Shown here: positions 30,934-44,567 of the stretch, one piece after another
Layout: every line of letters starts with the position of its first letter
Position numbering within the stretch: the first letter of the stretch is position 1
NCBI RefSeq assembly: GCF_008710035.1
Contig: NZ_VYKI01000008.1
Location: forward strand, 36,681-100,680
DNA length: 64,000 bases
Reading direction: 5' to 3'
From: Stenotrophomonas cyclobalanopsidis
GTDB taxonomy: Bacteria > Pseudomonadota > Gammaproteobacteria > Xanthomonadales > Xanthomonadaceae
Notes under the pieces: model-generated
What the model was told of the DNA's origin: nothing
The model's input: only the letters and a program-made list of their open reading frames with translations
Database searches by the model: none
Made by a program: the position numbers and the translations under genes

Positions 30934-31425
30934 ATGGCACACCCCCTTTCCAACCTCGGCGCGATCCACACCGCCGTAAGCCTGATCCCGGTCCTGGCCG
31001 GCCTGTATGGCTTCATCCGCCATCGCGCGATTGACCCGGCCACGCGCTCGGGCAAGCTCTACGTGCTGGGCCTGGTGCTGTCGGTCGCGACGGCCTTCAC
31101 CGTTTCCAGCACCGGCGGATTGAACCCCGGCCATGCATTCGGGGTAATCGTGCTGCTGGTCGCTTTCGGCGGCGTGCTGGCGGGGCGGCTGCGTTTCCTC
31201 GGCCGTATGGCGCCGTACCTGTCGACGTTCGCGTTGTCCTTCAGCTTCCTGCTGTCGCTGGTACCGGGCACCAATGAGACATTGACGCGTTTGCCGGTGG
31301 GACATCCGATTGCCGCCGCGCCGCTGGCACCGGTGGTGCTGCAGGTGCTGCTCGGCTGCGCGGTGGTGTTCGTGATCGGCTTCGCCGCGCAGTGCTGGCG
31401 GATCCGTTCGCGCCAGGTGCGTTGA
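30934..31425 (+). CDS. Predicted multi-pass membrane protein
   Basis: A 163-residue inner-membrane protein with four or five hydrophobic helices (for example AVSLIPVLAGLYGFI, LYVLGLVLSVATAF, FGVIVLLVAFGGVLAG, VVLQVLLGCAVVFVIGFAA). Its layout recalls DUF2306-type proteins. The ATG at 30934 is preceded by GGAGACC. It is the apparent target of the upstream TetR protein. Transport or redox roles cannot be distinguished. Confidence 0.75.
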   Translation: MAHPLSNLGAIHTAVSLIPVLAGLYGFIRHRAIDPATRSGKLYVLGLVLSVATAFTVSSTGGLNPGHAFGVIVLLVAFGGVLAGRLRFLGRMAPYLSTFALSFSFLLSLVPGTNETLTRLPVGHPIAAAPLAPVVLQVLLGCAVVFVIGFAAQCWRIRSRQVR

Positions 31426-31437
31426 TGCGTATGGCGA

Positions 31438-32430
31438 TCAGCAGCCGACCAGCCGGTCCGGACTGAGCGCACCGCGATGCAGATTGCGGTATTCCGTCGG
31501 GCTGGCATCGACCAGCCCACGGAAATGCCGGCGGAAGGATTCCTGCGAGCCGAAGCCGGCCTGCTCGGCTACCCACTGCAGCGGTCGGTCGGTGGATTCC
31601 AGCAGCTCGCGGGCAAACGCCACGCGCTCGCGGATGAGCCAGTCGATGGGTGACAGGCCGGTGGCTTCGAGGAACTGCCGCTGCAGGGTGCGCTGGCTCA
31701 ACGCCGCCTGCTCGGCAAGACTGCCCAGCGAATGCGTCTCGCGCAGGTTGTGGCGCATCCATTCCATCAGCTTGGCCAGCCGCGTGGGTTCGCCGTTGGG
31801 GATGGCCCGGCTGACCCGCTGGCTGCGCTCGGCATCGCGCCACGGCGCCAGCACCAGACGCTCGGCCACCAGGTTGGCCACGCGCGCGCCGTAGTCCTTG
31901 CGGACCATGTGCAGCATCATGTCCATGCCGGTGGCCGAGCCGGCCGAGGTGATGATGTCGCCGGTGTCGACGTACAACACATCCTCGCGCACGTGGATGC
32001 GCGGGAACTCCCGCGCCAGTGCTTCGGTGAGCCGCCAGTGGGTGGTGGCCTGGCGACCATCGAGAAGGCCGGCCCAGGCCAGCACGAAGGCCCCTGAGCA
32101 GATGGAGGTGATGCGTGTGCCACGCGCGTGGGCGCGGATGAGCGCGTCCAGCAGCGCCTGCGGTGGGCGTTCGCTGGGCTCGCGCCATCCGGGGATGACG
32201 ATGATGTCGGCGTCGTCGATAGCGTCGAGCGAGTAGGGCAGCTGCACCTGGGCGCTGCCGAGCATGCGCAGTGCACCGGGTTCGCCAGCGCAGAGCTGGG
32301 TGCGATACCAGGCCACCCCCAGTTCCGGGCGGATGGGCGCAAACAGTCCCACCGCGCAGCCGAACTCGAACAACCCCTGGCCGTGGCAGGCCACGATGGC
32401 GACGGTGGGCGCGGTCGGGTCGATGCTCAT
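31438..32430 (-). CDS. ftrA: FtrA/GlxA-type AraC regulator with DJ-1/PfpI domain
   Basis: A 330-residue protein. The N-terminal class I amidotransferase-like (DJ-1/PfpI) domain shows the nucleophile elbow ITSICSGAFVLAWAGLLDGR and ATTHW. The C-terminal AraC double HTH has SLGSLAEQAALSQRTLQRQF and VAEQAGFGSQESFRRHF. This matches FtrA, the transcriptional activator family named for glutathione-type responses, and other GlxA proteins. The assignment to FtrA over related regulators is moderate. It is divergent from the TonB receptor gene, about 290 bases away with a SMAG pair between. Confidence 0.88.
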   Translation of the reverse strand: MSIDPTAPTVAIVACHGQGLFEFGCAVGLFAPIRPELGVAWYRTQLCAGEPGALRMLGSAQVQLPYSLDAIDDADIIVIPGWREPSERPPQALLDALIRAHARGTRITSICSGAFVLAWAGLLDGRQATTHWRLTEALAREFPRIHVREDVLYVDTGDIITSAGSATGMDMMLHMVRKDYGARVANLVAERLVLAPWRDAERSQRVSRAIPNGEPTRLAKLMEWMRHNLRETHSLGSLAEQAALSQRTLQRQFLEATGLSPIDWLIRERVAFARELLESTDRPLQWVAEQAGFGSQESFRRHFRGLVDASPTEYRNLHRGALSPDRLVGC

Positions 32431-32518
32431 GGCGTGATGCTACCGAGGCGGCTGCGGTGCGCGCAGTGGCGTGCGGGCATGTGCAGATGCCGGCGGGGCA
32501 TATGGTGGAGGCCGAAGG

Positions 32519-32578
32519 GTAGAGTCGACCGTTGGTCGACTGCTGGTAGCGCGATAGTCGACCAACGGTCGAATCTAC
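32519..32578. repeat. Inverted pair of SMAG palindromes
   Basis: gtagagtcgaccgttggtcgact and its mirror ending gaatctac form a pair of gtcgacc/ggtcgac hairpins between the ftrA-like gene and the TonB receptor gene. Confidence 0.88.
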
Positions 32579-32721
32579 CCGGCGGGGGCTTGCGTAAGGT
32601 CATGACCAGCGGTCATGTGGCTGGCCGGATATGACGGTTGGGTGACGCGATATCGGCTGTTGCGTTGCCGGCCGGGGTCTTTGAATGGAGGTGTGTCTCC
32701 GGCCCACCCCCACGAGCCCCC

Positions 32722-35301
32722 ATGCCTGCCGCCCATTCGCCTGTCCTGAATTCCCTTGCTGTCCTGATTGCAGCCGCGCTGGCTGCTGCCTCTGCCCATG
32801 CTGCCGAGGCAGATGCCCCCGCAGACGCGGCGACGGCCACGTCCGCCACGCTGGCCGCCTCCACCCTGGATGCAGTGGTGGTCACCGGCTCACGCTCCAG
32901 CACGCGCACGGTCAAGAACAGTTCCACGCCCATCGACGTGATCTCCGCCGAGGATCTGGCGGCCACTGGCCAGGCCAACCTGCTCGAAGCGCTGCAGCGC
33001 AGCCTGCCGTCGCTGAGCCAGATCGGTGGCTACCAGAGTGACCAGGAGAGCCTGATCCGCGGCTACCAGCTGCGCAATCTGTCGCCGGGTTACACGCTGG
33101 TGCTGGTGAACGGCAAACGCCGCAATGCCAGCGCCTATGTCAGCGGTGCAAATGGCGGTGGCTATCCCGGCCATGCCTGGGCCGACCTCGCGTTGATTCC
33201 GGTGGCGGCCATCGACCATGTCGAAGTGCTGCGCGATGGTGCCTCGGCCATCTACGGCTCCGATGCCATCACTGGCGTGGTCAACGTGATCCTGAAATCG
33301 CAGGCGCATGGAGGCGATGTTTCGGTGGAAAGCGGGCAGAGCATCGACGGCGACGGTACGCGGACCAGCGTGCGTGCAAACGTCGGCCTGCCGTGGGGTG
33401 AGGATGGCTTCGTCAACCTGTCCGGTGAGACCACCCGCCAGCGCCACGCCATCCGCACGCGCCGCTACATCGGCGGCTACCTGAGTTACCCAGCGGTGGA
33501 TGCCAACGGCAACCTGGTCGCGCTGCGGCCGAACAACCAGCTGCCCGCCGGTGCCACGCCGAACCCGGCCGAGGCCACGCGCGATGCCGAAGCCAACACC
33601 ATCCTCAGTTCGCCGTCGTATTCGCTGAAGTCCTTCGCGCTGAATGCCGGCCACGGCCTGGGTGAGAACGCCCAGTTCTATGCCACTGCAACGGCGAGCG
33701 ATCGCAGCGCGCAGGCGATCCAGAACTTCCGCCTGCCGGCGACCATCTTCACCACCTACAAGGCGCCGAGCGTGCTGAGCGTGTGGCCCGATGGCTTCCT
33801 GCCGGTGCTGGAAACCAAGGAGAAGCAGTACACCGGCAGTGCCGGGGTGAAGGGCCAGCTGGTGGGCTGGGACTACGACGCCAGCCTGACGGGCAACCGC
33901 AGCACGGTGCGCACCTACACGCGCAACTCGGCCAACTTCTCGCTGCCATACCCGGGCTCGCCCACCGATTTCTACGACGGCAAGCTGGATTTCCAGCAGG
34001 GCATCGCGAACCTGGACCTGCGCCGCGGCTTCGAGGTCGCAGCACTCGCTTCGCCCCTGGAAATGAGTGCCGGCGCCGAGTACCAGCATGAACAGTACGA
34101 GCGCGGGGCAGGGCAGTGGGAGTCGTACACTGGCTTCGGTGCCGCCGCCTTCGTCGGCTACTCGACCGCTGATGCGGTGAAGGCCACGCGCAACAGCAAG
34201 GCGATGTACGTGGGCGCGGCCAGCAACATCACCTCGCGCTGGTACCTGGATGCGGCCGCGCGCTGGGAAGACCATTCGGACTTCGGCAGCGTGTCGACCG
34301 GGCGCCTGACCACGCGCTTTGATTTCACCGATGCGCTGGGGGTGCGCGCAACGGTCAGCAACGGCTTCCATGCGCCGAGCTTGGGGGCACAGTTCTACCA
34401 GGCCACCGGCAGCTGCCCCTGCGGCACCACGCTGGTGGCGCAGGTTTCATCGCCGGCGGCGGTTGCCCTCGGTGCGACGCCGCTGAAGCCTGAGAAGGCC
34501 ACCAATTACAGCCTGGGTGTGACCTGGGACCCGAGCCCGGCCTTCCATCTGGCGGTGGACGCCTACCAGATCGATATCCGCGGGCAGCTGGGCCAGTCCA
34601 GCCAGATCGGCTACAACGCGCAGGACCCGGCCAACATCACCGACAACAGCGGCACGGTGCTGACCGCGGCGCAGAAGAACACCATCGATGCGCTGCTGCG
34701 TACGGCCGGCATCAGCATCCTGCCCGGCGATGCGTTCTATGCCAGCTACTTCACCAATGTGGGCAACACCCGCACGCGCGGCGTCGAGCTGACCCTGGAA
34801 GCGAACCAGGACGCCGCGTGGGGCAAGCTGCGCTGGACCTACGCGGCCAATGTGGGCCGCACCACCATCCAGAAGGTCAGCGATATTCCTGCTGCACTGC
34901 AGGGTCTGCCGAACATCAACCTGCTGACCAAATCCAGCGAATACGCATTGCGCTTCCGCACGCCCAGCTACACACAGGTGGCAGGCCTGGGCTGGCAGAA
35001 CGGGCGCTGGCGCTCGAACCTGGACTTCACTTACTACGGCCCGATCAAGCGCCTGAACAACGGCGTGGAATACAAGCAGCCGCCGGTACTGGTGACCCAT
35101 CTGTCCGGCGGCGTCGAGCTGGGCGGCGGCTGGAGCGCGGCGCTGGGCATCAACAACGTGTTCGACAAGCGCACCCGCAAGGTGCCCGGGTACGCGCGCA
35201 GCGCCAGCGACGTGGCCAGCATCGAAACCACCTGGGATACCGGCGATGTGCTGAGCACGGTGGGTGCGTTCTGGTACGGGCGGGTCAACTACCGGTTCTG
35301 A
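32722..35301 (+). CDS. TonB-dependent outer-membrane receptor
   Basis: About 859 residues from ATG 32722. The start gives a clean signal peptide (SLAVLIAAALAAASAHA, cut before AEAD). A TonB-box-like stretch LDAVVVTGSRS follows, then a plug domain with the RGYQLRNLSPGYTLVLVNGK and VLRDGASAIYGSDAITGVVN segments, then a 22-strand barrel ending in the aromatic Phe of VNYRF. Such receptors import scarce nutrients. Given the sulfur-type operon directly downstream on the same strand, an organosulfur ligand is my inference. A SMAG element lies between it and the FMN reductase. Confidence 0.95.
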   Translation: MPAAHSPVLNSLAVLIAAALAAASAHAAEADAPADAATATSATLAASTLDAVVVTGSRSSTRTVKNSSTPIDVISAEDLAATGQANLLEALQRSLPSLSQIGGYQSDQESLIRGYQLRNLSPGYTLVLVNGKRRNASAYVSGANGGGYPGHAWADLALIPVAAIDHVEVLRDGASAIYGSDAITGVVNVILKSQAHGGDVSVESGQSIDGDGTRTSVRANVGLPWGEDGFVNLSGETTRQRHAIRTRRYIGGYLSYPAVDANGNLVALRPNNQLPAGATPNPAEATRDAEANTILSSPSYSLKSFALNAGHGLGENAQFYATATASDRSAQAIQNFRLPATIFTTYKAPSVLSVWPDGFLPVLETKEKQYTGSAGVKGQLVGWDYDASLTGNRSTVRTYTRNSANFSLPYPGSPTDFYDGKLDFQQGIANLDLRRGFEVAALASPLEMSAGAEYQHEQYERGAGQWESYTGFGAAAFVGYSTADAVKATRNSKAMYVGAASNITSRWYLDAAARWEDHSDFGSVSTGRLTTRFDFTDALGVRATVSNGFHAPSLGAQFYQATGSCPCGTTLVAQVSSPAAVALGATPLKPEKATNYSLGVTWDPSPAFHLAVDAYQIDIRGQLGQSSQIGYNAQDPANITDNSGTVLTAAQKNTIDALLRTAGISILPGDAFYASYFTNVGNTRTRGVELTLEANQDAAWGKLRWTYAANVGRTTIQKVSDIPAALQGLPNINLLTKSSEYALRFRTPSYTQVAGLGWQNGRWRSNLDFTYYGPIKRLNNGVEYKQPPVLVTHLSGGVELGGGWSAALGINNVFDKRTRKVPGYARSASDVASIETTWDTGDVLSTVGAFWYGRVNYRF

Positions 35302-35311
35302 TTGAACCGAA

Positions 35312-35333
35312 GTCGAGCATGGCTCGACTCTAC
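35312..35333. repeat. SMAG palindrome
   Basis: gtcgagc-atg-gctcgac followed by CTAC lies 13 bases before the FMN reductase start. Confidence 0.85.
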
Positions 35334-35346
35334 AACGGAGGTTTGC

Positions 35347-35928
35347 ATGTCATCTGCATTGAACGTGGTTGCACTGATTGGCTCGCCGACGAGTTCGGCG
35401 ACGTCGCGGACGCTGCTGCTGGTGCGGCACCTGCTGGACGCACTGCAGGAGCGCCTGCATGCCAGCGTGACTTTGGTGGAGCTGGCGTCGATCGCGCGCT
35501 CGCTTGGGCAGTCGCTGACGCGTGGAGAGGTTGAGCCGTTCGTTGAACAGGCGCTGGCCACGGTGGAATCGGCGGATCTGCTGGTCGTGGCCACGCCGGT
35601 GTATCGCGGTTCCTACCCGGGGCTGTTCAAGCACCTGGTGGATTTCATCGGGCTGGAGGCGCTGGTGGATACGCCGGTGCTGCTGGCCGCCACCGGTGGC
35701 AGCGAACGCCATGCATTGGTGATCGACCACCAGCTGCGACCGTTGTTCAGCTTCCTGCAGGCGCACACGCTGCCGATAGGGGTGTATGCCACGCCGGCGG
35801 ATTTCGATGGCGCGCAGATCAACAGCGCGGCGCTGCAGGCGCGTATCGCGCTGGCGGCCGAACGTGCCGCTGGGCACCTGACGGTGCAGGCGCTCGCTGC
35901 GCCGGCGCCGTTGCGGCGCATCGCGTGA
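35347..35928 (+). CDS. msuE: NADPH-dependent FMN reductase (MsuE/SsuE type)
   Basis: A 193-residue flavodoxin-like protein from ATG 35347. The FMN phosphate site GSPTSSATSRTLLLV follows the first strand, with ATPVYRGSYPGLFKHLVDFI and LLAATGGSERHALVIDHQL as in MsuE/SsuE. It would supply reduced FMN to the two luciferase-like monooxygenases downstream. It is the first enzyme gene of the 35.3-43.4 kb operon. SsuE and MsuE are hard to separate by eye. Confidence 0.88.
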   Translation: MSSALNVVALIGSPTSSATSRTLLLVRHLLDALQERLHASVTLVELASIARSLGQSLTRGEVEPFVEQALATVESADLLVVATPVYRGSYPGLFKHLVDFIGLEALVDTPVLLAATGGSERHALVIDHQLRPLFSFLQAHTLPIGVYATPADFDGAQINSAALQARIALAAERAAGHLTVQALAAPAPLRRIA

Positions 35929-36096
35929 GTAGCGAATGCGCGGCATAACCGGCGGCGCTTTGCTTATGGCCAAGGCGCATCTGCGTGGCCGGATCTGACC
36001 GCCGATTGTCGCGCGATGGCGCTGATGCAGCGCCGCCCTTCTCTAGCATCAAAGACGAAGCGGCACTGCGGTGCCGGACCTGATGAGGACGACCCC

Positions 36097-36459
36097 GTGG
36101 CTGAAGACGCAACCCCCAAACCCATCCTGTTCCTGCTGGACCGCGAGTTCGAGGACGGTCAGCTGCCCGGTCAGCGCTTCTTCTGCCGCCACAGTCTGTT
36201 GCTGGAAGGCGCACTGTCGAGCATCGACGGTCTGGATACACATCTGGACGTGCGCCGGATCGGCTTTGCCCGGCCGCGCCGCGAGGTGATTGCCGAGATC
36301 GGCGAGCAGGACCAGTCGCTGCCCAAGCTGGTGCTGCCGCAGGGCGTGCACAGCGAACACGCCAACGGTGCCCACCACGAGCGCCTGTACGTGTCTGGTG
36401 CCGAACCCATCCTGGCTGCCCTGAACGGGTTGCTCGGCATTCCCGTGGCCCACCCCTGA
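36097..36459 (+). CDS. DUF3088 protein, possible glutaredoxin-like partner
   Basis: A 120-residue protein. GTG 36097 follows GAGG with 8-base spacing. The start KPILFLLDREFEDGQLPGQ, then FFCRHSLLLEGALSS, then RPRREVIAEIGEQDQSLPKL fits the DUF3088 family. The single Cys sits where a thioredoxin-fold CxxC would lie, but the second Cys is replaced (CRHS). In the B. subtilis ytm operon a glutaredoxin-like protein (CmoI) occupies the equivalent place, so I suspect a thiol or persulfide handling role. That is inference. Confidence 0.75.
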   Translation: MAEDATPKPILFLLDREFEDGQLPGQRFFCRHSLLLEGALSSIDGLDTHLDVRRIGFARPRREVIAEIGEQDQSLPKLVLPQGVHSEHANGAHHERLYVSGAEPILAALNGLLGIPVAHP

Positions 36460-36473
36460 GCGAGGACGCGCGC

Positions 36474-37451
36474 ATGAGCTATCTGATCAGCGTATTGGAC
36501 AAGAGCCCGGTGGCCGATGGCGGCACGCCCGAGCAGGCGCTGCGCTATAGCCTGCAGCTGGCGCAGCGTGCCGAACAGCTGGGCTACCACCGTTACTGGT
36601 TCGCCGAACACCATGCCGCGCCAACCCTGGCCAGCCCGGCGCCGGAAGTGCTGGCGGCGTGGGTGCTGGCGCAGACCCGGCGCATCCGCATCGGCAGCGG
36701 TGGGGTGATGCTGCGCCATTACGCTCCCTACAAAGTGGCCGAGAACTTCAATCTGCTGGCGGCGCTGGCGCCGGGCCGCGTGGATCTGGGCGTGGGAAAG
36801 GCCCCCGGTGGCCTGCCGGCCTCGACCGCAGCGCTGGCCGCGGGCCGACCGGCCTTCGCCGATTTCACCCAGCAGCTGCGTGATCTGGAAGGTTATCTGT
36901 CCGGCACACAGGAAGACGCGCAGGCGCGGCCCGTGCCGCAGAGCGCACCCGAGCGCTTCCTGCTGGGCGCCAGCCCCCAGAGCGCGCGACAGGCGGCCGA
37001 GCTCGGTTGGCGCTTCGTCTATGCCGCGCACTTCGATGGCGATCCAGCCCATATCGAGGCGGCCTTCGAGGCCTATCGCGCGGTGTCTGCACATCCGCCG
37101 CTGCTGGCCACCGTCGCCTTCGCTGCCCCCACGAGCGAAGCCGCCGCACGCCACATCGGGGCACTGCGCGTCTACAAGTTGCATCTGGGGCCGGGGCAGA
37201 CAGTGAACCTGCCCAGCCCGGAAGCCGCCGCAGAGTACGCGCGGCAGGTCAAGGTGAGCCACTTCCGCATCGAGGAAACCCGTCCCAGCGTGCTGTCCGG
37301 CGATGCCGCGCACGTTCGGGGCGAGCTGGACGCACTGCACCGGCGCTTCGGCGTGGGTGAATTCATCCTGGACGCCCCCGTGGCCGACCTGGATGCCCGC
37401 CTGACATCCCTTGAACTGCTGTCGCCCGCGCCGCGCGCGGCGGTGGCCTGA
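36474..37451 (+). CDS. Luciferase-like flavin monooxygenase (MsnO8/YtmO type)
   Basis: A 325-residue bacterial-luciferase-fold protein. MSYLISVLDKSPVADGG, YHRYWFAEHHAAPTLASPAP, RIRIGSGGVMLRHYAPYKVAE and GRVDLGVGKAPG are the signatures of the MsnO8-type LLM class, to which YtmO/CmoO also belongs. It uses reduced FMN and O2. It follows the DUF3088 gene by 14 bases and precedes a second LLM oxidase by 18. Confidence 0.92.
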   Translation: MSYLISVLDKSPVADGGTPEQALRYSLQLAQRAEQLGYHRYWFAEHHAAPTLASPAPEVLAAWVLAQTRRIRIGSGGVMLRHYAPYKVAENFNLLAALAPGRVDLGVGKAPGGLPASTAALAAGRPAFADFTQQLRDLEGYLSGTQEDAQARPVPQSAPERFLLGASPQSARQAAELGWRFVYAAHFDGDPAHIEAAFEAYRAVSAHPPLLATVAFAAPTSEAAARHIGALRVYKLHLGPGQTVNLPSPEAAAEYARQVKVSHFRIEETRPSVLSGDAAHVRGELDALHRRFGVGEFILDAPVADLDARLTSLELLSPAPRAAVA

Positions 37452-37469
37452 CCTGCAGGAGCGACCCCC

Positions 37470-38813
37470 ATGAGCACCACTCCGCGCCACATTCCGTTCG
37501 GCATCATGCTGCAGGGCCCCGGCAGCCACATGCATGCCTGGAAGCACCCTTCCAACCCGACAGACGCCAGCGTCAACCTGCAGTTCTACATCGACATCGC
37601 GCGCACCGCCGAGGACAACGGCATCGCCTTCGGCTTCGTGGCCGATGGCCTGTACATCAACGAGAAGTCGATCCCACACTTCCTCAACCGCTTCGAGCCG
37701 ATTTCGCTGCTGTCCGCGCTGGCAACCGTGACGAAGAAGATCGGCCTGGCCGGTACGCTGTCGACCTCCTACAGCGATCCGTTCACCGTCGCCCGCCAGT
37801 TCGCCTCGCTGGATCTGCTCAGCGGCGGCCGCGCCGGCTGGAACGTGGTGACCTCGCCATTGGAAGGCTCGGGTCGCAACTACGGCCGCCCGCATCCGGA
37901 GCACGCGCTGCGCTACCAGATTGCCGATGAGTACCTGGACGTGGTGCAGGGCCTGTGGGACTCGTGGGATGACGATGCGTTCGTGCGTGAGCGCGACAGC
38001 GGCACCTTCTTCGCGCCGGAAAAGTTCCGCCGCCTGGACCACAAGGGGAAGTTCTTCCAGGTCGAAGGCCCGTTGAACATCCAGCGCTCGCCGCAGGGGC
38101 AGCCGGTGATCTTCCAGGCTGGTTCGTCCGATGATGGTATCGCGCTGGCGGGCAAGTACGCCGATGCGGTGTTCACCCACTCGCCTTCGCTGGAGGAAAC
38201 GCGTGCCTTCACCCAGAAGGTGAAGAACTCGGCCATTGCCCACGGCCGCAGCGGCAACGATGTGAAGATCTTCCCCGGCATCGGCCCCATCGTCGGCCAC
38301 ACGGAGGCCGAAGCCGAGGCCAAGTACCAGGCCATTGCCGCACTGGCCAGCCTGGATGATGCGCTGGCTTACCTGGGGCGATTCTTCGATCACCATGATT
38401 TCAGCCAGTACGACCCGGATGCGCCGTTCCCCGAGCTGGGTGACATTGGCAGCAACTCGTTCCGCTCCACCACCGACCGCATCAAGCAGGACGCCCGCGA
38501 GCAGGGCCTGACCCTGCGCCAGGTGGCGCTGCAGGCGGTGAGCCCGCGCCCGAACTTCATCGGCACGCCGCAGCACGTGGCCGACGAACTGATCCGCTGG
38601 TTCGATGCCGGTGCCAGCGACGGCTTCATCCTCGGCTTTGCCGCGCAGCGCGAAGGCCTGGATGATTTCGTGAAGCTGGTGCTGCCGATCCTGCAGGCGC
38701 GTGGCTACCACCGGCGCGAGCTGCAGGGGCAGACCCTGCGCGACCATCTGGGCCTGCCGCGCAAGGCCAGCCGCCATGCAACCGACGCCGAACCGGCGCG
38801 GAAGGCGGGGTAA
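37470..38813 (+). CDS. Luciferase-like monooxygenase (NtaA/SnaA/DszA family)
   Basis: A 447-residue two-component flavin monooxygenase. IPFGIMLQGPGSHMHAW, GLAGTLSTSYSDPFTVARQFASLD, SGGRAGWNVVTSP and HFD-region variants match NtaA/SoxA/DszA and B. subtilis YtnJ/CmoJ. Family members attack C-S or C-N bonds using reduced FMN from a partner reductase. The length is usual. In this operon I infer the oxidative dealkylation step on an N-acetylated S-substituted cysteine. Confidence 0.92.
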   Translation: MSTTPRHIPFGIMLQGPGSHMHAWKHPSNPTDASVNLQFYIDIARTAEDNGIAFGFVADGLYINEKSIPHFLNRFEPISLLSALATVTKKIGLAGTLSTSYSDPFTVARQFASLDLLSGGRAGWNVVTSPLEGSGRNYGRPHPEHALRYQIADEYLDVVQGLWDSWDDDAFVRERDSGTFFAPEKFRRLDHKGKFFQVEGPLNIQRSPQGQPVIFQAGSSDDGIALAGKYADAVFTHSPSLEETRAFTQKVKNSAIAHGRSGNDVKIFPGIGPIVGHTEAEAEAKYQAIAALASLDDALAYLGRFFDHHDFSQYDPDAPFPELGDIGSNSFRSTTDRIKQDAREQGLTLRQVALQAVSPRPNFIGTPQHVADELIRWFDAGASDGFILGFAAQREGLDDFVKLVLPILQARGYHRRELQGQTLRDHLGLPRKASRHATDAEPARKAG

Positions 38814-38817
38814 GACG

Positions 38818-40131
38818 ATGACGATCCTGCACCGGGCTTTATTGGATGCAACGCGCGCCGGGCATGGCCCGGCGCTACCGGATCGTGGCGGCGACGGGCA
38901 TGGGCGCGCTCTGGAGCGCACGGACCCGGTAGCGCCGGGCCATGCCCGGCGGAACCCGACGGCAACAGGCGTGCTGCCGCAGATTGCAGCACGCGCCGAA
39001 GAGGCCATCGCGCTGCGCCATGACCTGCACCGCCACCCCGAGCTGGCGTTCAAGGAACATCGCACCAGCGCCCGCGTGGCCGAGCTGCTGCAGCAATGGG
39101 GCTACGCGGTGACCACCGGCATTGGTGGCACCGGTGTGGTGGGCACGCTGCAGCGCGGGCAGGGCAATCGTCGGCTGGGCCTGCGCGCGGACATCGACGC
39201 ACTGCCGATCCAGGAGGATTCCGGCCTTGCATATGCCAGCCAGAACGAAGGCCTGATGCACGCTTGCGGCCACGATGGCCACACCGCAATCCTGCTGTCG
39301 GCGGCGCACTACCTGGCCCATCATGGGCGCATCGACGGCACCCTGCAGCTGGTGTTCCAGCCGGCCGAAGAGACCGGTTCGGGAGCCCTGAAGATGATCG
39401 AGGACGGCCTGCTCGAGCGCTTCCCGGTGGATGCCATCTACGGCCTGCACAACTGGCCGGGCGTGCCGGTGGGGCACTTCGGTTTCGTCGATGGTCCAGC
39501 GATGGCGTCGGTGGACTGGGCGCGGCTGAAGGTGCTCGGCAAGGGCGGCCACGGCGCCGAGCCGCAGGGCAGTGTCGATCCGATCCTGGCTGCCGCGCAC
39601 ATCATCACTGCGCTGCAGAGCGTGGTGTCGCGCAATGTGGACCCGCGGCAGATGGGTGTGGTCACCGTGGGGTCGATCCACGGTGGGCAGGCGGCCAACG
39701 TGATTCCCGACGTGGTGGAGCTGAAGCTGACCGTGCGCGCCTACCTGCCGGAAGTGCGCGACACCCTGCGCCGTCGGGTAACCGGCATTGCCGAGCAGAC
39801 CGCCGCTGCCTTCGGCGCGCGTGCCGAGATCGAATTCCCGCGCGGCTTCCCCAGCGTGATCAATCATCCGCAGGAGACCGCCTACATCCGCGAGGTCGCA
39901 CGGCAGGGCTTTGGTGAGGCGCAGGTGGTCCCGGCGTTCGCGCCGCGTACGGCCAGCGAGGACTTCGCGTTCCTGCTGCAGGCGCGCCCCGGCAGCTTCG
40001 TCTTCGTCGGCAACGGCGACAGCGCGCCGCTGCACAGCCCGCGCTACGTGTTCAACGACGCAGCCATCGCCCCGGCAGCCAGCCTGTGGGCGCGCCTGGC
40101 CGAGCACTACCTGGTGGAGGACGCGGCATGA
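38818..40131 (+). CDS. M20-family amidohydrolase with SMAG-derived N-terminal insert
   Basis: A 437-residue metallo-amidohydrolase (YtnL/SndA, YxeP, HipO group), expected to remove an N-acyl group. Zinc-site motifs: ACGHDGHTA, QPAEETGSG, and the late SEDFAFLLQ. The body starts at about residue 52 (VLPQIAARAEEAIALRHDLHRHPEL). Between MTILHRALLDAT and it lie about 35 residues coded by two inverted SMAG palindromes, read in frame (RAGHGPALP, VAPGHARR). ATG 38818 is four bases after the previous stop. It overlaps the next gene by ATGA. Confidence 0.9.
   Translation: MTILHRALLDATRAGHGPALPDRGGDGHGRALERTDPVAPGHARRNPTATGVLPQIAARAEEAIALRHDLHRHPELAFKEHRTSARVAELLQQWGYAVTTGIGGTGVVGTLQRGQGNRRLGLRADIDALPIQEDSGLAYASQNEGLMHACGHDGHTAILLSAAHYLAHHGRIDGTLQLVFQPAEETGSGALKMIEDGLLERFPVDAIYGLHNWPGVPVGHFGFVDGPAMASVDWARLKVLGKGGHGAEPQGSVDPILAAAHIITALQSVVSRNVDPRQMGVVTVGSIHGGQAANVIPDVVELKLTVRAYLPEVRDTLRRRVTGIAEQTAAAFGARAEIEFPRGFPSVINHPQETAYIREVARQGFGEAQVVPAFAPRTASEDFAFLLQARPGSFVFVGNGDSAPLHSPRYVFNDAAIAPAASLWARLAEHYLVEDAA
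38856..38951. repeat. SMAG pair inside a coding region
   Basis: The inverted elements cgccgggc-atg-gcccggcgctac (38856-38878) and gtagcgccgggccatgcccggcg (38929-38951) lie wholly inside the amidohydrolase reading frame and contain no in-frame stop. Confidence 0.88.
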
Positions 40132-40688
40132 GCGTGCAGTTTGACAACGAGCGTTTCCTCTACACCTCGGTGGATGACCCGCTGGCGCGACCGCTGTTCG
40201 ATGGCCTGGAGCAGGAGTACGACAGCCGCTACGCCGATGTGCGCGGACGCGTCGGTGGCAGCGCACGCGAGGAGCTGCAGCGCTACCCGGCGCAGGCGTT
40301 TGCCGCACCGGTGGGGGCTTTCGTGTTGCTGCTGCGCGATGGCGGGGCGATCTCCGGCGGCGCGTTCATGCCGCACCGCGATGCGCACACCGCCGAGTTC
40401 AAGCGGATCTGGACGCTGCCCGGCCTTCGCCGCCAGGGCATCGCCCGCCGCGTGCTGCAGGAACTGGAAGACCAGGCCGCACGGCAGGGCTATCGCCGCG
40501 TGTTCCTGACCACCGGCTTCCGCCAGCCCGAGGCGGTGGGCCTGTACCTCAGCCATGGCTACACGGCGCTGTTCGACCTGCACGCCGACCCGGAGACGAT
40601 TGCGCACCTGCCGTTTGAGAAACACCTGCACGCGTCGGCGCCGTTGCCGGCGGCCAGTGCTGCACTGCTGCACGGAGCCCATGCATGA
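40128..40688 (+). CDS. GNAT-family N-acetyltransferase
   Basis: A 186-residue GNAT. The acetyl-CoA pyrophosphate motif LRRQGIARRVLQELE and the later FRQPEAVGLYLSHGY are clear. It starts with ATGA overlapping the stop of the M20 gene and ends with ATGA overlapping the ABC gene, so translation is coupled. In the B. subtilis ytm and yxe operons the GNAT member (SnaA, YxeL) acetylates the amino group of S-substituted cysteines, which the M20 enzyme later reverses. Confidence 0.92.
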   Translation: MSVQFDNERFLYTSVDDPLARPLFDGLEQEYDSRYADVRGRVGGSAREELQRYPAQAFAAPVGAFVLLLRDGGAISGGAFMPHRDAHTAEFKRIWTLPGLRRQGIARRVLQELEDQAARQGYRRVFLTTGFRQPEAVGLYLSHGYTALFDLHADPETIAHLPFEKHLHASAPLPAASAALLHGAHA

Positions 40689-42436
40689 GCACGCCTTCCA
40701 CCGCGCTGGAGGGCATCGCCGCCCTCCCAGCAACCGCGTCCACACCGGCCTTGAGGATCGTACCGGTGCGGCACCCGCTGCAGACCGTCGGCACGGTGCT
40801 GGCGCTGGCCCTGATCCTGATCGGGCTGCAATCGGTTCTGGGCAACCCGCGATGGGGCTGGGGCACGTTCGCCGAGTGGTTCTTCGCGCGCCCGGTGCTG
40901 GAAGGACTGGGCCGTACCCTTCTGCTGACCGCGCTGGGCACCGGCCTGGGCTTCGCGCTGGGTACGCTGCTGGCCCTGGCGCGCGTCTCCGGTTCGCCGC
41001 TGCTGTCGGCGGTGTCGTGGGGCTACGTGTGGCTGTTCCGCTCGATTCCGTTGCTGGTGCTGTTGCTGCTGCTGAACAACCTTGGCTATCTCTACAGCAC
41101 CATCGAACTGGGCGTGCCGTTCACCGGCATCAGCCTGTTCTCGTACCCGACCACGCAGCTGATCGGTGTGTTCACTGCGGCGGTACTGGGCCTGACCTTG
41201 AACCAGGCGGCGTTCTCGGCCGAGGTCATCCGCGGCGGCATTCTGTCGGTGGACCACGGGCAGTACGAAGCAGCCGCGGCGCTGGGCCTGCCGCGCGGTC
41301 GCCAGGTACGCCGGATCATCCTGCCGCAGGCAATGCGTTCGATCCTGCCGGCCGCCTTCAACGATGTGATCGGGCTGGCCAAGAGTACCTCGGTGGTCTA
41401 TGTGCTGGCACTGCCCGAGCTGTTCTACACCGTGCAGGTGATCTACCGCCGCAACCTGGAAGTGGTGCCGCTGCTGATGGTGGCCACGGTCTGGTACCTG
41501 GTCATCCTCACCGTGCTGTCGCTGCTGCAGCGGCGGGTGGAGCAGCGTTTCGCACGGGGCCAGATGCAGCGCGAACGCAGCATCTCGCGTGTGTCTTCAC
41601 CGGTCAGGCCCGTGGTGCGGAGCGAGGCGCGCGTGGCCAGCCGCCCGCGTGTCGCGGCCCAGGTCGAGCCCGGGCAGGGTGCTGCAGTCGGACTGCATGG
41701 TGTCGGAAAGGTGTTTGGCGAGCAGACCGTGCTGGAGGATGTGAACCTGGAACTGCGCGCCGGCAGCGTGACCGTGCTGATCGGTCCTTCGGGCGCAGGC
41801 AAGTCGACCCTGCTGCGGTTGATCAACCATCTGGAGCGCGCCGACAGCGGCTATGTGAACGTGGGCGGACAGCTGATCGGCTACCGCCGCGACGGTGACA
41901 CGCTGCATGAGCTGCCCGAGCGCGAGATCCGCCGCCGTCGTGCCGAGGTCGGCATGGTGTTCCAGGGCTTCAACCTCTTCCCGCACCTGACCGCGCTGGA
42001 GAACATCATCGAGGCGCCGATCGCGGTGCGTGGCCTGCCGCGTGTGCAGGCCGAGCAGCAGGCGCGCGACCTGCTGCAGCGTGTCGGCCTGGCCGACAAG
42101 GCCGATGCCTTCCCGCGGCAGCTCTCCGGTGGCCAGCAGCAGCGCATCGCCATTGCCCGTGCACTGGCGCTGCAGCCGAAGGTGCTGCTGTTTGACGAGC
42201 CGACCTCGGCGCTGGACCCGGAACTGGTGGCCGAAGTACTGAGCGTGATCGAGGAGCTGGCCAGCTCCGGCACGACCCTGGTGATCGTCACCCACGAACT
42301 GAGCTTCGCCCGCCGCGTGGCCGACACCGTGGTGATGATGGACCAGGGGCGGGTGATCGAGCAGGGCAGCCCCGAGGCGCTGTTCGAGCGGCCGCGGCAG
42401 CAACGTACAGCTGATTTCCTGGCCAAGACTCTGTAA
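40685..42436 (+). CDS. Fused amino-acid ABC transporter permease-ATPase
   Basis: A 583-residue fusion. Residues 1-~295 form a HisM/GlnP-type permease (PVLEGLGRTLLLTALGTGLG, WLFRSIPLLVLLLLL, EVIRGGILSVDHGQYEAAAALG as the EAA loop). After a basic linker, residues ~335-583 form an ATPase: Walker A GPSGAGKS, signature LSGGQQQR, Walker B VLLFDEPTSALD. Permease and ATPase are normally separate genes (TcyL/M and TcyN in B. subtilis). The fusion would work with the binding protein that follows 13 bases later. Confidence 0.94.
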   Translation: MSTPSTALEGIAALPATASTPALRIVPVRHPLQTVGTVLALALILIGLQSVLGNPRWGWGTFAEWFFARPVLEGLGRTLLLTALGTGLGFALGTLLALARVSGSPLLSAVSWGYVWLFRSIPLLVLLLLLNNLGYLYSTIELGVPFTGISLFSYPTTQLIGVFTAAVLGLTLNQAAFSAEVIRGGILSVDHGQYEAAAALGLPRGRQVRRIILPQAMRSILPAAFNDVIGLAKSTSVVYVLALPELFYTVQVIYRRNLEVVPLLMVATVWYLVILTVLSLLQRRVEQRFARGQMQRERSISRVSSPVRPVVRSEARVASRPRVAAQVEPGQGAAVGLHGVGKVFGEQTVLEDVNLELRAGSVTVLIGPSGAGKSTLLRLINHLERADSGYVNVGGQLIGYRRDGDTLHELPEREIRRRRAEVGMVFQGFNLFPHLTALENIIEAPIAVRGLPRVQAEQQARDLLQRVGLADKADAFPRQLSGGQQQRIAIARALALQPKVLLFDEPTSALDPELVAEVLSVIEELASSGTTLVIVTHELSFARRVADTVVMMDQGRVIEQGSPEALFERPRQQRTADFLAKTL

Positions 42437-42449
42437 CCCGAGGACTTCC

Positions 42450-43421
42450 ATGAGCCCTGCAGCATCGCGCCGTCCCTCGCGCAGCACTCTGTTGATCGGC
42501 GCCGCGCTGGTCATCGGCATCGCCGGCATCGTTTACTCGCGCGTGCGCGGGCCCGCAGATGCGCCTGCCGCCAGTGTGACCCTGGCCGGCGCCGATGCGC
42601 CTGCACTGACCGGCACGACTGACCCGAAAGCGCAGGCCCTGATTCCGGCGGGCTATCGTTTCGTGACCCCCGGTGTGCTGACCGTGGCAACCCATCCGGC
42701 GCAGCTGCCGCTGGCCGACTACGGTGCCGACAGCAAGCAGGTGGTGGGGGTCGAGCCGGACATCGCCAAGCTGATTGCCGATGGCCTGGGGCTGAAGCTG
42801 GTGCTGGTGCCGGTGGCATGGCCGGACTGGCCGCTGGGGCTGGAATCCGGCAAGTACGATGCGGTGCTGTCCAATGTGACGGTGACCGAGGAGCGCAAGA
42901 AGAAGTTCGACTTCTCCAGCTACCGGTTCGACCTGCTGGGCATCTACACCCGCACCGACGGGCCGATCCAGAAGATAGAGAAGCCCGCGGACGTGGCCGG
43001 GCTGAAGGTGGTGGTGGGCGCCAGTACCAACCAGGACCAGATCCTGCGGCACTGGGACCAGCAGAACATCGCCGCGGGCCTGAAGCCGGTAGAGTACCAG
43101 TACTTCGACGATGCCGTGGTGGGGCGGCTGGCGGTGATCACCGGTCGTGCCGATGTGTCGTTCGAGCCGAATGCCACGGGCGCCTATTCGGCGCGCGATG
43201 GCAAAGTGCGCCGGGTGGGCCTGTTCCCCGGCGGCTGGCCGGATGCCGCGGCGATCTCGGCGACCACGCGCAAGGGTAGCGGTCTGGCCGATGCCATCAC
43301 CGCAGCGTTGAACACGCAGATCCGCACCGGCACTTATGCGCAGGCGCTGGCGCGCTGGAACCTGGCCGAAGAGGCCGTCCCGGAGTCGCAGACCAATCCG
43401 CCGGGCTTGCCGGATCTGTGA
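42450..43421 (+). CDS. ABC transporter solute-binding protein (family 3)
   Basis: A 323-residue polar-amino-acid binding protein. An uncleaved or signal-type N-terminal helix (STLLIGAALVIGIAGIVYSR) lacks a lipobox Cys, so it may stay anchored in the inner membrane. The mature domain has GVLTVATHPAQLPLADYG, EPDIAKLIADGLGLKL, YDAVLSNVTVTEERKKKFDF and VGASTNQDQIL. It is the last gene of the operon, and a SMAG array follows. Confidence 0.92.
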   Translation: MSPAASRRPSRSTLLIGAALVIGIAGIVYSRVRGPADAPAASVTLAGADAPALTGTTDPKAQALIPAGYRFVTPGVLTVATHPAQLPLADYGADSKQVVGVEPDIAKLIADGLGLKLVLVPVAWPDWPLGLESGKYDAVLSNVTVTEERKKKFDFSSYRFDLLGIYTRTDGPIQKIEKPADVAGLKVVVGASTNQDQILRHWDQQNIAAGLKPVEYQYFDDAVVGRLAVITGRADVSFEPNATGAYSARDGKVRRVGLFPGGWPDAAAISATTRKGSGLADAITAALNTQIRTGTYAQALARWNLAEEAVPESQTNPPGLPDL

Positions 43422-43431
43422 CTACGCTTTG

Positions 43432-43593
43432 GTAGCCGTCGACCTTGGTCGACGAAACGCGCCAACCAAGGTTGGCCTCTACCAGAGCGAATGGAGCGCC
43501 AACCAAGGTTGGCCTCTACCAGAGCGAACGGAGCGCCAACCAAGGTTGGCCTCTACCAGAGCGAACGGAGCGCCAACCAAGGTTGGCCTCTAC
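43432..43593. repeat. SMAG plus 37-bp tandem SMAG array
   Basis: One gtagccgtcgaccttggtcgacg hairpin is followed by four units at a 37-bp period (starts 43459, 43496, 43533, 43570). Each contains the ccaaccaaggttgg palindrome and CTAC. Copies differ at single bases. The last CTA is the minus-strand stop codon of the LysR gene. Confidence 0.93.
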
Positions 43594-44483
43594 AGGGCTG
43601 CCAAGCGCTCGCGCAGCCATCGATGCGCGGGATCGCGGTGCACGCGCTCGTGCCAGAACAGCATCATCTCGAATCCCGGCACGTTGATCGGTGCCTCCAC
43701 CGCCTTCAACGCAGGGTCAGCCTCCACAAAGCGTGAAGGCATCATCGCGACCAGGTCGGTGCGTAGCAGGGCACTGCGCAGGAACAGGAAGTGCGGCACC
43801 GACAGCACGACCTCGCGGCGTGCACCTACATGCGCCAACGCGCTGTCCGTGTTGCCGTGGAAGCCTCCGCCATCGGGGGACACGATCGCGTGCTGCAACG
43901 CGCAGAACTGCTTCAGCGTCGGTCGCCGCTTCAATTTCGGATGGTCGCGCCGGCCGGCCAGTACATAGCGTTCCTGGAACAGCGGACGCTGATGCAGTGA
44001 CGGCGGCGCTTCAGAAGCGATGTGGATGGCAAGGTCGATCTCACCACGCTCGGCCTGCGCCACCATCTGCGCCGGCGCAAGGCTGACCACCGCCAAGCGT
44101 GTGCCCGGCGCGGCATCGCGGATGCCTGGGAGTGCCGGTAGCACAACGGTGGATTCGCCGAAGTCCGACGCCATGATCCGCCAGGTCTGTTGGGCACTGG
44201 CCGGATCGAATGACTGCACGGGCGCGACGGTGCGCCGGATCGCATCCAGTGCTTCAGCCAGCGGCTCGCGCAGCGCCTCGGCGCGGGCCGTGCAGCGCAT
44301 GCCGCGTGAACCCGGTAGCAGCAGCGGATCATCAAACAGGCCGCGCAGCCGCGCCAGCTGGATGCTGACCGTGGGTTGGGCCAGATGCAGGCGTTCGGCC
44401 GCACGGGTCACGTTCTGTTCTTCCAGCAGCGCCTGCAGGGTCACCAGCAGGTTGAGGTCGATGCGACGCAGGATATTGTCCAT
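43590..44483 (-). CDS. LysR-family transcriptional regulator
   Basis: A 297-residue LysR protein. The N-terminal winged HTH reads LNLLVTLQALLEEQNVTRAAERLHLAQPTVSIQLARL, a NodD-like subfamily style, with an effector domain after. Its divergent neighbour (84-bp gap) is an NAD(P)H quinone oxidoreductase gene, its most likely target. A role in the organosulfur operon on its other side is possible but less likely from orientation. The TAG stop comes from the SMAG array. Confidence 0.93.
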   Translation of the reverse strand: MDNILRRIDLNLLVTLQALLEEQNVTRAAERLHLAQPTVSIQLARLRGLFDDPLLLPGSRGMRCTARAEALREPLAEALDAIRRTVAPVQSFDPASAQQTWRIMASDFGESTVVLPALPGIRDAAPGTRLAVVSLAPAQMVAQAERGEIDLAIHIASEAPPSLHQRPLFQERYVLAGRRDHPKLKRRPTLKQFCALQHAIVSPDGGGFHGNTDSALAHVGARREVVLSVPHFLFLRSALLRTDLVAMMPSRFVEADPALKAVEAPINVPGFEMMLFWHERVHRDPAHRWLRERLAAL

Positions 44484-44567
44484 GGCAATGAGTGCAATTG
44501 CAGGAATTCATTTCAACTATAGCGCGATACTGCCTATCGTCACCGGCATTCCCCACTGTGGTGCTCC

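Follow-up and report, generated by a model that had tools for sequence, protein, structure and literature searches.

The ytm pathway of Bacillus subtilis, a salvage route for S-substituted cysteines, is reportedly described in a paper of 2014. As set out in PMC10863075, the substrate is acetylated, oxidized, cleaved, reduced and deacetylated in that order, with CmoO and CmoJ carrying the oxidative chemistry; the N-acetylcysteine sulfenic acid left by CmoJ must be reduced, and the CmoO/CmoJ pathway is presented there as widely distributed in soil bacteria. N-acetylcysteine deacetylase activity is ascribed to ScmP, YhaA and YtnL in PMC12757645. We analyzed here a window of 64,000 nucleotides (the whole stretch of DNA under study) from Stenotrophomonas cyclobalanopsidis, in which nine genes between positions 32722 and 43421 very likely form a CmoO/CmoJ-type system for S-substituted cysteines, judging from sequence comparison. 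They encode a TonB-dependent outer-membrane receptor (TBDR), an FMN reductase, a DUF3088 protein, two monooxygenases, an M20 amidohydrolase, a GNAT acetyltransferase, a fused permease-ATPase and a binding protein. Gene calls and family scans agree with the sequence-only reading of this DNA on all nine genes, on their order and on their location on the + strand.

The two monooxygenases and their conserved neighbours

The NtaA/DmoA-family luciferase-like monooxygenase (LLM) at 37470..38813 (+; TIGR03860, 524 bits, cut-off 280), a predicted CmoJ-like sulfoxide C-S monooxygenase, is by identity and phylogeny the orthologue of CmoJ (YtnJ). It shares 57% identity with B. subtilis YtnJ (1TVL) and 54% with Listeria CmoJ, and is the only match in its own genome at E<=1e-60. 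In a FastTree phylogeny of 43 sequences with midpoint rooting, one clade (28 sequences, support 0.93) unites the window protein with YtnJ, the Gram-negative set and the CmoJ proteins of Listeria, Niallia, Paenibacillus and Pantoea; 15 paralogues fall outside it, and YxeK was absent from the sequence set.

We regard it as quite improbable that the LLMs act on a non-cysteine substrate, as they would if the locus scavenged or detoxified another organosulfur or nitrogen-containing compound such as a sulfone, a thioether xenobiotic or an aminopolycarboxylate. The NtaA/DmoA family does include DmoA, BdsA, EmoA and nitrilotriacetate monooxygenase, and TonB receptors and MsuE occur in other organosulfur use too. 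However, in a search of the PDB the window CmoJ scores 533 bits with YtnJ, against 270 with BdsA, 227 with DmoA and 211 with EDTA monooxygenase, and the combination of an acetylase, a deacetylase and an amino-acid importer fits an amino-acid substrate. The highest score in this search, 632 bits, belongs to a chain titled nitrilotriacetate monooxygenase (3sdo), which we take to be a Burkholderia protein; the next chain after YtnJ reaches 291 bits.

The second LLM, of the MsnO8 family (36474..37451, +; TIGR03558, 330 bits, cut-off 167), is by the same kind of comparison a CmoO orthologue beside CmoJ, with a predicted S-oxygenase role. It is 38% identical to Listeria CmoO (E 1e-75). When the Listeria protein is searched against the whole window genome, the window CmoO comes first with 223 bits versus 130 for the next protein, and the two are mutual best matches in both directions searched. 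With CmoJ in the YtnJ clade and CmoO paired with its Listeria counterpart, the earlier proposal of a Gram-negative counterpart of S-substituted-cysteine salvage holds at the pathway level. Reciprocal comparison thus succeeded for CmoO and gave a weaker mutual best pair for the GNAT; among the ytm and yxe proteins of B. subtilis, the comparison covered YtnJ and YxeP, through the PDB.

To describe the surroundings of CmoJ, we kept the best 80 of at least 547 relatives found in genome contigs, a sample that leans to close relatives. The 80 loci carry 27 genus labels taken from record titles, three of which stand above the genus (Lysobacterales, Rhodobacteraceae and Hyphomicrobiales); L060 and L108 are among the loci on short contigs. 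Counting only genes on the same strand, at most 8 kb from CmoJ and within identity and length limits, CmoO and the GNAT each accompany CmoJ in 78 of the 80 loci, followed by the binding protein (77), the fused transporter (76) and M20 (44). The TBDR is present in 21, DUF3088 in 20 and MsuE in 13, these last all Stenotrophomonas. A looser count, admitting any LLM, GNAT or ABC protein in the flank, gives 79 for CmoO, 79 for the GNAT, 78 for the ABC protein and 77 for the binding protein. This arrangement is far beyond chance. Within the family of the window's species, 21 of 247 genomes contain a CmoJ match at E<=1e-100, 11 of these 21 (own genome counted) at 81% identity or more; CmoJ is present in 19 of 37 genomes of the same genus.

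The survey also revealed variants. A third LLM (TIGR04027-like, below the model cut-off; for example L073:14211-15287) belongs to the cluster at 34 loci with 20 genus labels; it is not among the genes of the window locus. Contig JAHREJ010000022.1 (L057), titled Bacillus subtilis SK7B5 and counted here as Stenotrophomonas, harbours a whole Stenotrophomonas-type locus with a CmoJ 89% identical to that of the window, and is probably a mislabelled or contaminated assembly; there a third LLM sits between the FMN reductase and DUF3088. Another CmoJ cluster, on a plasmid of Pantoea sp. At-9b (L173), combines a GNAT, a differently laid-out ABC importer, CmoJ, M20 and a second NtaA-type enzyme, and CmoO is neither annotated nor matched in it.

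The GNAT acetyltransferase (40128..40688, +; PF00583) is a probable S-alkylcysteine N-acetyltransferase, in the role of SnaA. It matches the GNAT of the Listeria operon weakly (29% over 100 residues, E 2.5e-5) and is, again weakly, the only match of that protein in the window genome at E<=1 (E 0.04). An ABC importer of the amino-acid/cystine type, as classified by sequence, belongs to the cluster as well. Its permease fused to an ATPase (40685..42436, +) is nearest TcyN (NF008428, 310 bits, the cut-off of 406 not being reached), and its periplasmic binding protein (42450..43421, +; SBP_bac_3, PF00497, 84 bits) is nearest a cystine-binding protein (NF008426, 64 bits, short of the cut-off of 312). 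Identity to the Listeria importer is 45% for the ATPase part, 37% for the permease part and 23% for the binding protein; relatives of the fused protein have a median length of 598 amino acids and carry 25 genus labels.

The M20 amidohydrolase (38818..40131, +; TIGR01891, 361 bits, cut-off 154) is a probable N-acetylcysteine deacetylase. Its PDB matches are B. subtilis YxeP/ScmP (263 bits), another M20 peptidase, presumably of the S. aureus type (246), an auxin-conjugate hydrolase (223) and an N-acyl-glutamine aminoacylase (222), an order that does not settle the substrate. No grouping of the GNAT or M20 proteins with unrelated substrates was found in these comparisons, although the M20 sequence cannot exclude one, given the 223 bits of the auxin-conjugate hydrolase against 263 for YxeP. 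Across the 80 loci, M20 is present in 44 and an aspartoacylase/DoeB (AspA)-type deacylase (PF24827; TIGR02994, 240 bits, short of the cut-off of 403) in 20, all from Burkholderia or Paraburkholderia where M20 is absent. That the two types never occur together argues for N-deacylation as a fixed step, and the second type looks like a replacement of this step by an unrelated enzyme in a single lineage.

The 5' end of the M20 gene contains, in frame, an inverted dimer resembling repetitive extragenic palindromic (REP) elements (38856-38951), with 29-nt arms that are 97% complementary; the hairpin is predicted at -84.6 kcal/mol for 120 nt. Several relatives have a single shorter piece (VAPGHARR), others have none, and L056 has more copies.

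Could the locus instead be of the scm/yxe type, serving S-(2-succino)cysteine through a YxeK-like cleavage without prior sulfoxidation? The GNAT, M20 and ABC importer are common to the yxe operon as described in PMC9706529, and M20 is nearest to YxeP in the PDB. Yet two monooxygenases, one of them MsnO8-type, occur together in 78 of the 80 loci, CmoJ falls in the YtnJ clade (in a tree whose sequence set lacked YxeK), and no lyase was detected among ten genes scanned at the locus. We consider this alternative very unlikely and retain a CmoO/CmoJ-type system as the preferred reading.

DUF3088 and the sulfenic acid

Upstream of CmoO lies a gene for a DUF3088 protein (about 36097..36459, +; PF11287, 98 bits, cut-off 26.4), whose start codon is uncertain: a GTG is found at 36097 and the open reading frame (ORF) opens at 36016. 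The family was earlier placed in the thioredoxin clan, according to PMC3091736. In an alignment of 31 sequences, Cys29 and Pro75 are invariant (31/31), and a second cysteine is kept in 8 of the 31 (as CPYC, CPFC, CPHC, CPDC or CPEC); the window protein reads CRHS. A Foldseek search with the AlphaFold model (pLDDT 92.9, pTM 0.86) lists thioredoxins first, with a best E of 0.02. After realignment, the four rows with Z above 8 (Z 8.1) are entries of the glutathione S-transferase (GST) or dehydroascorbate reductase (DHAR) type, including the GST-omega-like LigG, at an rmsd of 2.5-2.9 over 79-89 residues; E. coli glutaredoxin 3 gives Z 6.9, and a Z near 8 is modest. Nearly all structural matches listed come from what we take to be thioredoxin-fold families. 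By model and alignment, DUF3088 is thus a thioredoxin/GST-N fold with a putative redox cysteine at helix 1 and a conserved proline. It shares these traits, the cysteine lying at the start of helix 1, with GST-omega, DHAR, CLIC and glutaredoxin domains and differs from them in lacking a C-terminal GST domain; with sequence identities of 6-23% in the 50 rows listed, we do not claim membership in any of these families.

A glutaredoxin, presumably CmoI, is present in the cmo loci of Listeria and Niallia. A two-sequence CmoI profile had no match in the 80 loci at E<=0.01. We rejected DUF3088 as a plain CmoI homologue, its hhalign comparison with the Bacillota glutaredoxin profile being non-significant (probability 0.8%); of the traits of a glutaredoxin proper, CPYC or a variant is kept in 8 of 31 sequences, the window protein having CRHS instead. 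Because the sulfenate has to be reduced, because the Listeria and Niallia loci contain a glutaredoxin and because no CmoI was found in the 80 loci, we propose a functional substitution, in which DUF3088 would be a candidate N-acetylcysteine-sulfenate reductase taking the place of CmoI. This proposal, made by analogy, is a tentative one.

Within the genus, DUF3088 and CmoJ are distributed identically, both being present in the same 19 of 37 genomes; one further genome, of another family, also has DUF3088. In the class, DUF3088 is rare: it was found in 2 of 274 genomes, one of them the window's own, in a background sample drawn from other lineages. In either orientation, DUF3088 lies in the flank of 25 of the 80 CmoJ loci. 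We also searched for it in 39 genomes taken from the 66 non-xanthomonad loci: 19 of the 39 were positive, and 11 of the 31 without DUF3088 near CmoJ have it elsewhere. Since 8 of the 11 genomes with a nearby DUF3088 were included, and are therefore over-represented, 19/39 is no unbiased rate. As a raw count, 9 of 19 other DUF3088 sites have a CmoJ-family LLM in the 7-kb flank, 5 above 250 bits and 4 weak. In Aquitalea (L104:7119-8674), DUF3088 adjoins a porin gene and is divergent from CmoO, the porin standing where Stenotrophomonas has the TonB receptor.

Two units, a shared motif and a divergent regulator

The sequence-only reading described the genes as tightly spaced from the FMN reductase on. 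Junctions are indeed short between DUF3088 and CmoO (14 nt), CmoO and CmoJ (18 nt), CmoJ and M20 (4 nt) and the ABC and binding-protein genes (13 nt), and the two ATGA overlaps it reported are present, M20/GNAT at 40128-40131 and GNAT/ABC at 40685-40688. However, about 168 nt separate the stop of msuE from the GTG start of DUF3088, and the tight run begins only at the latter. The TBDR gene (32722..35301, +; PF00593, 125 bits; PF07715, 70 bits) and the gene for the MsuE-type NAD(P)H:FMN reductase (35347..35928, +; TIGR03566, 223 bits, cut-off 212.5) are 45 nt apart, with a short palindrome (agtcgagcatggctcgact) in the junction. From the contrast between the 168-nt gap and the junctions after it, we distinguish a packed unit from DUF3088 to the binding protein and a separate TBDR-msuE unit in front. 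The nine-gene block stands; the single operon gives way to two promoter regions and a divergent AraC-type gene, which the earlier limits of the locus had left out.

A 22-bp operator-like motif, CATNTGNNTGGCCGGATNTGAC, occurs upstream of the receptor gene (32614..32635, +) and again in the gap before DUF3088 (35978..35999, +). These are the only two exact copies in the genome, which holds four further matches with 3 mismatches. Allowing up to 4 mismatches, the motif precedes DUF3088 in all 17 other loci inspected (13 Stenotrophomonas, L060 and L182-L184). It precedes the TBDR gene in 12 of the 13 Stenotrophomonas loci, L057 being the exception, as well as in L182 and L184; L183 has none there, and L182 carries a third site ahead of its FMN reductase gene. 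All of the 34 sites share TGGC and the flanking AT pairs. Because both window copies served to write the pattern, its expectation of 0.06 in the window is not independent; the motif is supported by turning up in other loci while being absent from the rest of the genome. The shared motif suggests two co-regulated units. A sigma-54 promoter was rejected as a reading of the motif: in the copies that come closest to one, the GG-to-GC spacing falls one base short of the consensus, and the GC is not conserved.

Upstream of the TBDR gene and divergent from it lies a gene for an AraC-type regulator with a DJ-1/PfpI domain (GlxA-like; 31438..32430, -; PF12833, 77 bits; PF01965, 60 bits). Relatives at E<=1e-80 occur in the same 19 of 37 genomes of the genus as CmoJ and DUF3088, and in 17 of the 19 on the contig that carries CmoJ; these counts ignore kinship and may reflect the shared ancestry of one Stenotrophomonas clade. 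In other genera of the family, three loci likewise have a relative (71-74% identity) next to the receptor gene. We consider this gene part of the locus, as a candidate dedicated regulator, and its neighbourhood suggests that the protein probably acts at the two motif sites. Outside Stenotrophomonas, a relative appears among the 80 loci only once, weakly, in Paraburkholderia, which implies that regulation differs elsewhere. A downstream LysR gene (43590-44483, -) was rejected as the regulator: its product is BsrA/LeuO-like, and the gene is divergent from one that encodes a flavodoxin-fold protein. Of the 13 Stenotrophomonas loci, 3 have a relative (70-83%) roughly 3-4 kb beyond the binding-protein gene, and none was found in the flank of the remaining 10.

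Most related loci lack the receptor, and most lack the FMN reductase; both are additions of particular lineages. The sequence-only reading saw in both of them traits of a Gram-negative form. Both are present in the window, but the receptor accompanies CmoJ in 21 of the 80 loci only, and a dedicated FMN reductase is neither special to Gram-negatives, Listeria having ssuE, nor general among them (13/80). In three loci of the wider family, L182 and L184 have an MsuE relative and L183 does not. One may therefore ask whether the window joins two separate systems, the TBDR and MsuE handling sulfonates or another ligand and being merely co-regulated with a salvage unit from DUF3088 to the binding protein. 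The wide gap with its own motif, the low same-strand counts and other close TBDRs in the genome would fit such a reading. It is nevertheless unlikely, as the same motif stands before both units and is exact nowhere else in the genome, a TBDR gene directly precedes CmoO in Paraburkholderia and two Burkholderia loci, and ssuE is part of the Listeria operon. For the single salvage system that we favour, MsuE would supply reduced flavin to both monooxygenases, and the simplest guess for the receptor is that the substrate exceeds the size limit of porins or is too rare to be gathered through them.

When the cmo-linked Paraburkholderia receptor was searched against the window genome, two other receptors scored 410 and 370 bits, the window one matched in two pieces (220+166 bits), and the next reached 97. 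With three receptors matching about equally, the window TBDR was rejected as its strict orthologue. Around the two other receptors, ten ORFs were scanned, seven without a match at E<=1e-20 and some perhaps in wrong frames; nothing there pointed clearly to organosulfur use except an O-acetylhomoserine sulfhydrylase gene some 2 kb beyond one of the two receptors.

Two further REP-like features flank the locus, a hairpin at 32512-32585 and tandem 37-nt repeats (GCGCCAACCAAGGTTGGCCTCTACC...) at 43459-43593, shortly 3' of the binding-protein gene. A riboswitch or other known RNA in the leader was rejected, as no Rfam family reached its gathering score within 31000-44500.

A proposed route and its relation to known systems

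Combining the orthology of CmoJ and CmoO, the conserved synteny, the fold of DUF3088 and the shared motif, all computed here, we infer a route whose substrate, reactions and regulation are conditional throughout. Judging from their families, the receptor would take an S-substituted cysteine, or a bulkier conjugate of one, through the outer membrane, from where the binding protein and fused permease-ATPase would carry it into the cytoplasm. The GNAT would acetylate the amino group, CmoO would convert the sulfur to a sulfoxide, and CmoJ would cleave the C-S bond to yield an aldehyde and N-acetylcysteine sulfenic acid. We propose that DUF3088 may reduce this acid via its single cysteine; deacetylation by M20 would then release cysteine. 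FMNH2 would come from MsuE, and the AraC/DJ-1 protein would sense the substrate or the sulfur state, probably acting at the two motif sites. A bolder conjecture is that DUF3088 proteins form a new family of sulfenic-acid reductases that work through a single cysteine and are devoted to the C-S cleavage of organosulfur compounds. On this view, Stenotrophomonas and neighbouring lineages of its family would run a self-contained AraC/DJ-1-controlled system, with its own outer-membrane receptor and a locus-only operator, that imports and dealkylates S-conjugated cysteines; plant cysteine sulfoxides and conjugates derived from glutathione are possible substrates. This is possible, if on balance doubtful.

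Several observations weigh against this reconstruction. DUF3088 has no significant profile match to the Bacillota glutaredoxin and is missing from the flank of 55 of the 80 CmoJ loci, so it is not indispensable. The likeness of the GNAT to the Listeria enzyme is weak, the specificity of M20 is not readable from its sequence, and 16 of the 80 loci have neither M20 nor an AspA-type deacylase in the flank; the deacylase swap, confined to Burkholderia and Paraburkholderia, may be one event. MsuE lies near CmoJ in Stenotrophomonas only, and by sequence two other receptors of the genome match the Paraburkholderia cmo receptor about as well as the window one does.

While the pathway itself is known, we found no paper among open-licence full texts on the Gram-negative locus described here, on the connection of DUF3088 with it, on the exchange of deacylases or on the regulator and its motif. 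The 27 genus labels point to a conserved Gram-negative version of an unusual flavin-dependent C-S cleavage, with specific new roles suggested for DUF3088, a family without assigned function, in sulfenate reduction, for a second deacylase type in Burkholderia, and for a local regulator and operator. It is relevant to the recovery of sulfur from alkylated cysteine by soil and plant bacteria, and to the true identity of many proteins annotated as 'nitrilotriacetate monooxygenase family'.

Among described systems, the msu/sfn/ssu clusters of Pseudomonas share with the present locus an MsuE-type FMN reductase and group C flavin monooxygenases; we know of no acetyltransferase/deacetylase pair in them. 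The scm (yxe) operon of B. subtilis, as presented in PMC9706529 and PMC12757645, has a GNAT, an FMN-dependent monooxygenase, an M20 deacetylase and an ABC importer like the present locus, but relies on YxeK/ScmK or the lyase 2SL where the latter has two monooxygenases, the main one CmoJ-like. Closest are the ytm/cmo operon of B. subtilis (SnaA, TcyJ-N, CmoO, CmoI, CmoJ, SndA/YtnL) and its Listeria form, which have in common with the present locus CmoO, CmoJ, a GNAT, an amino-acid ABC importer and the M20 deacetylase role. The Listeria record, where no M20 gene is annotated in the cmo stretch, reads ssuE-GNAT-SBP-permease-permease-ATPase-CmoO-glutaredoxin-CmoJ in one run (SBP, binding protein), and all of the nine genes except the TBDR, DUF3088 and M20 match a member of it, the FMN reductase with 29% identity over 89 residues. 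The present locus differs from both forms by its outer-membrane receptor, fused permease-ATPase, gene order and DUF3088 in place of glutaredoxin, and from Listeria by an AraC/DJ-1 regulator where a LysR gene stands beside the operon.

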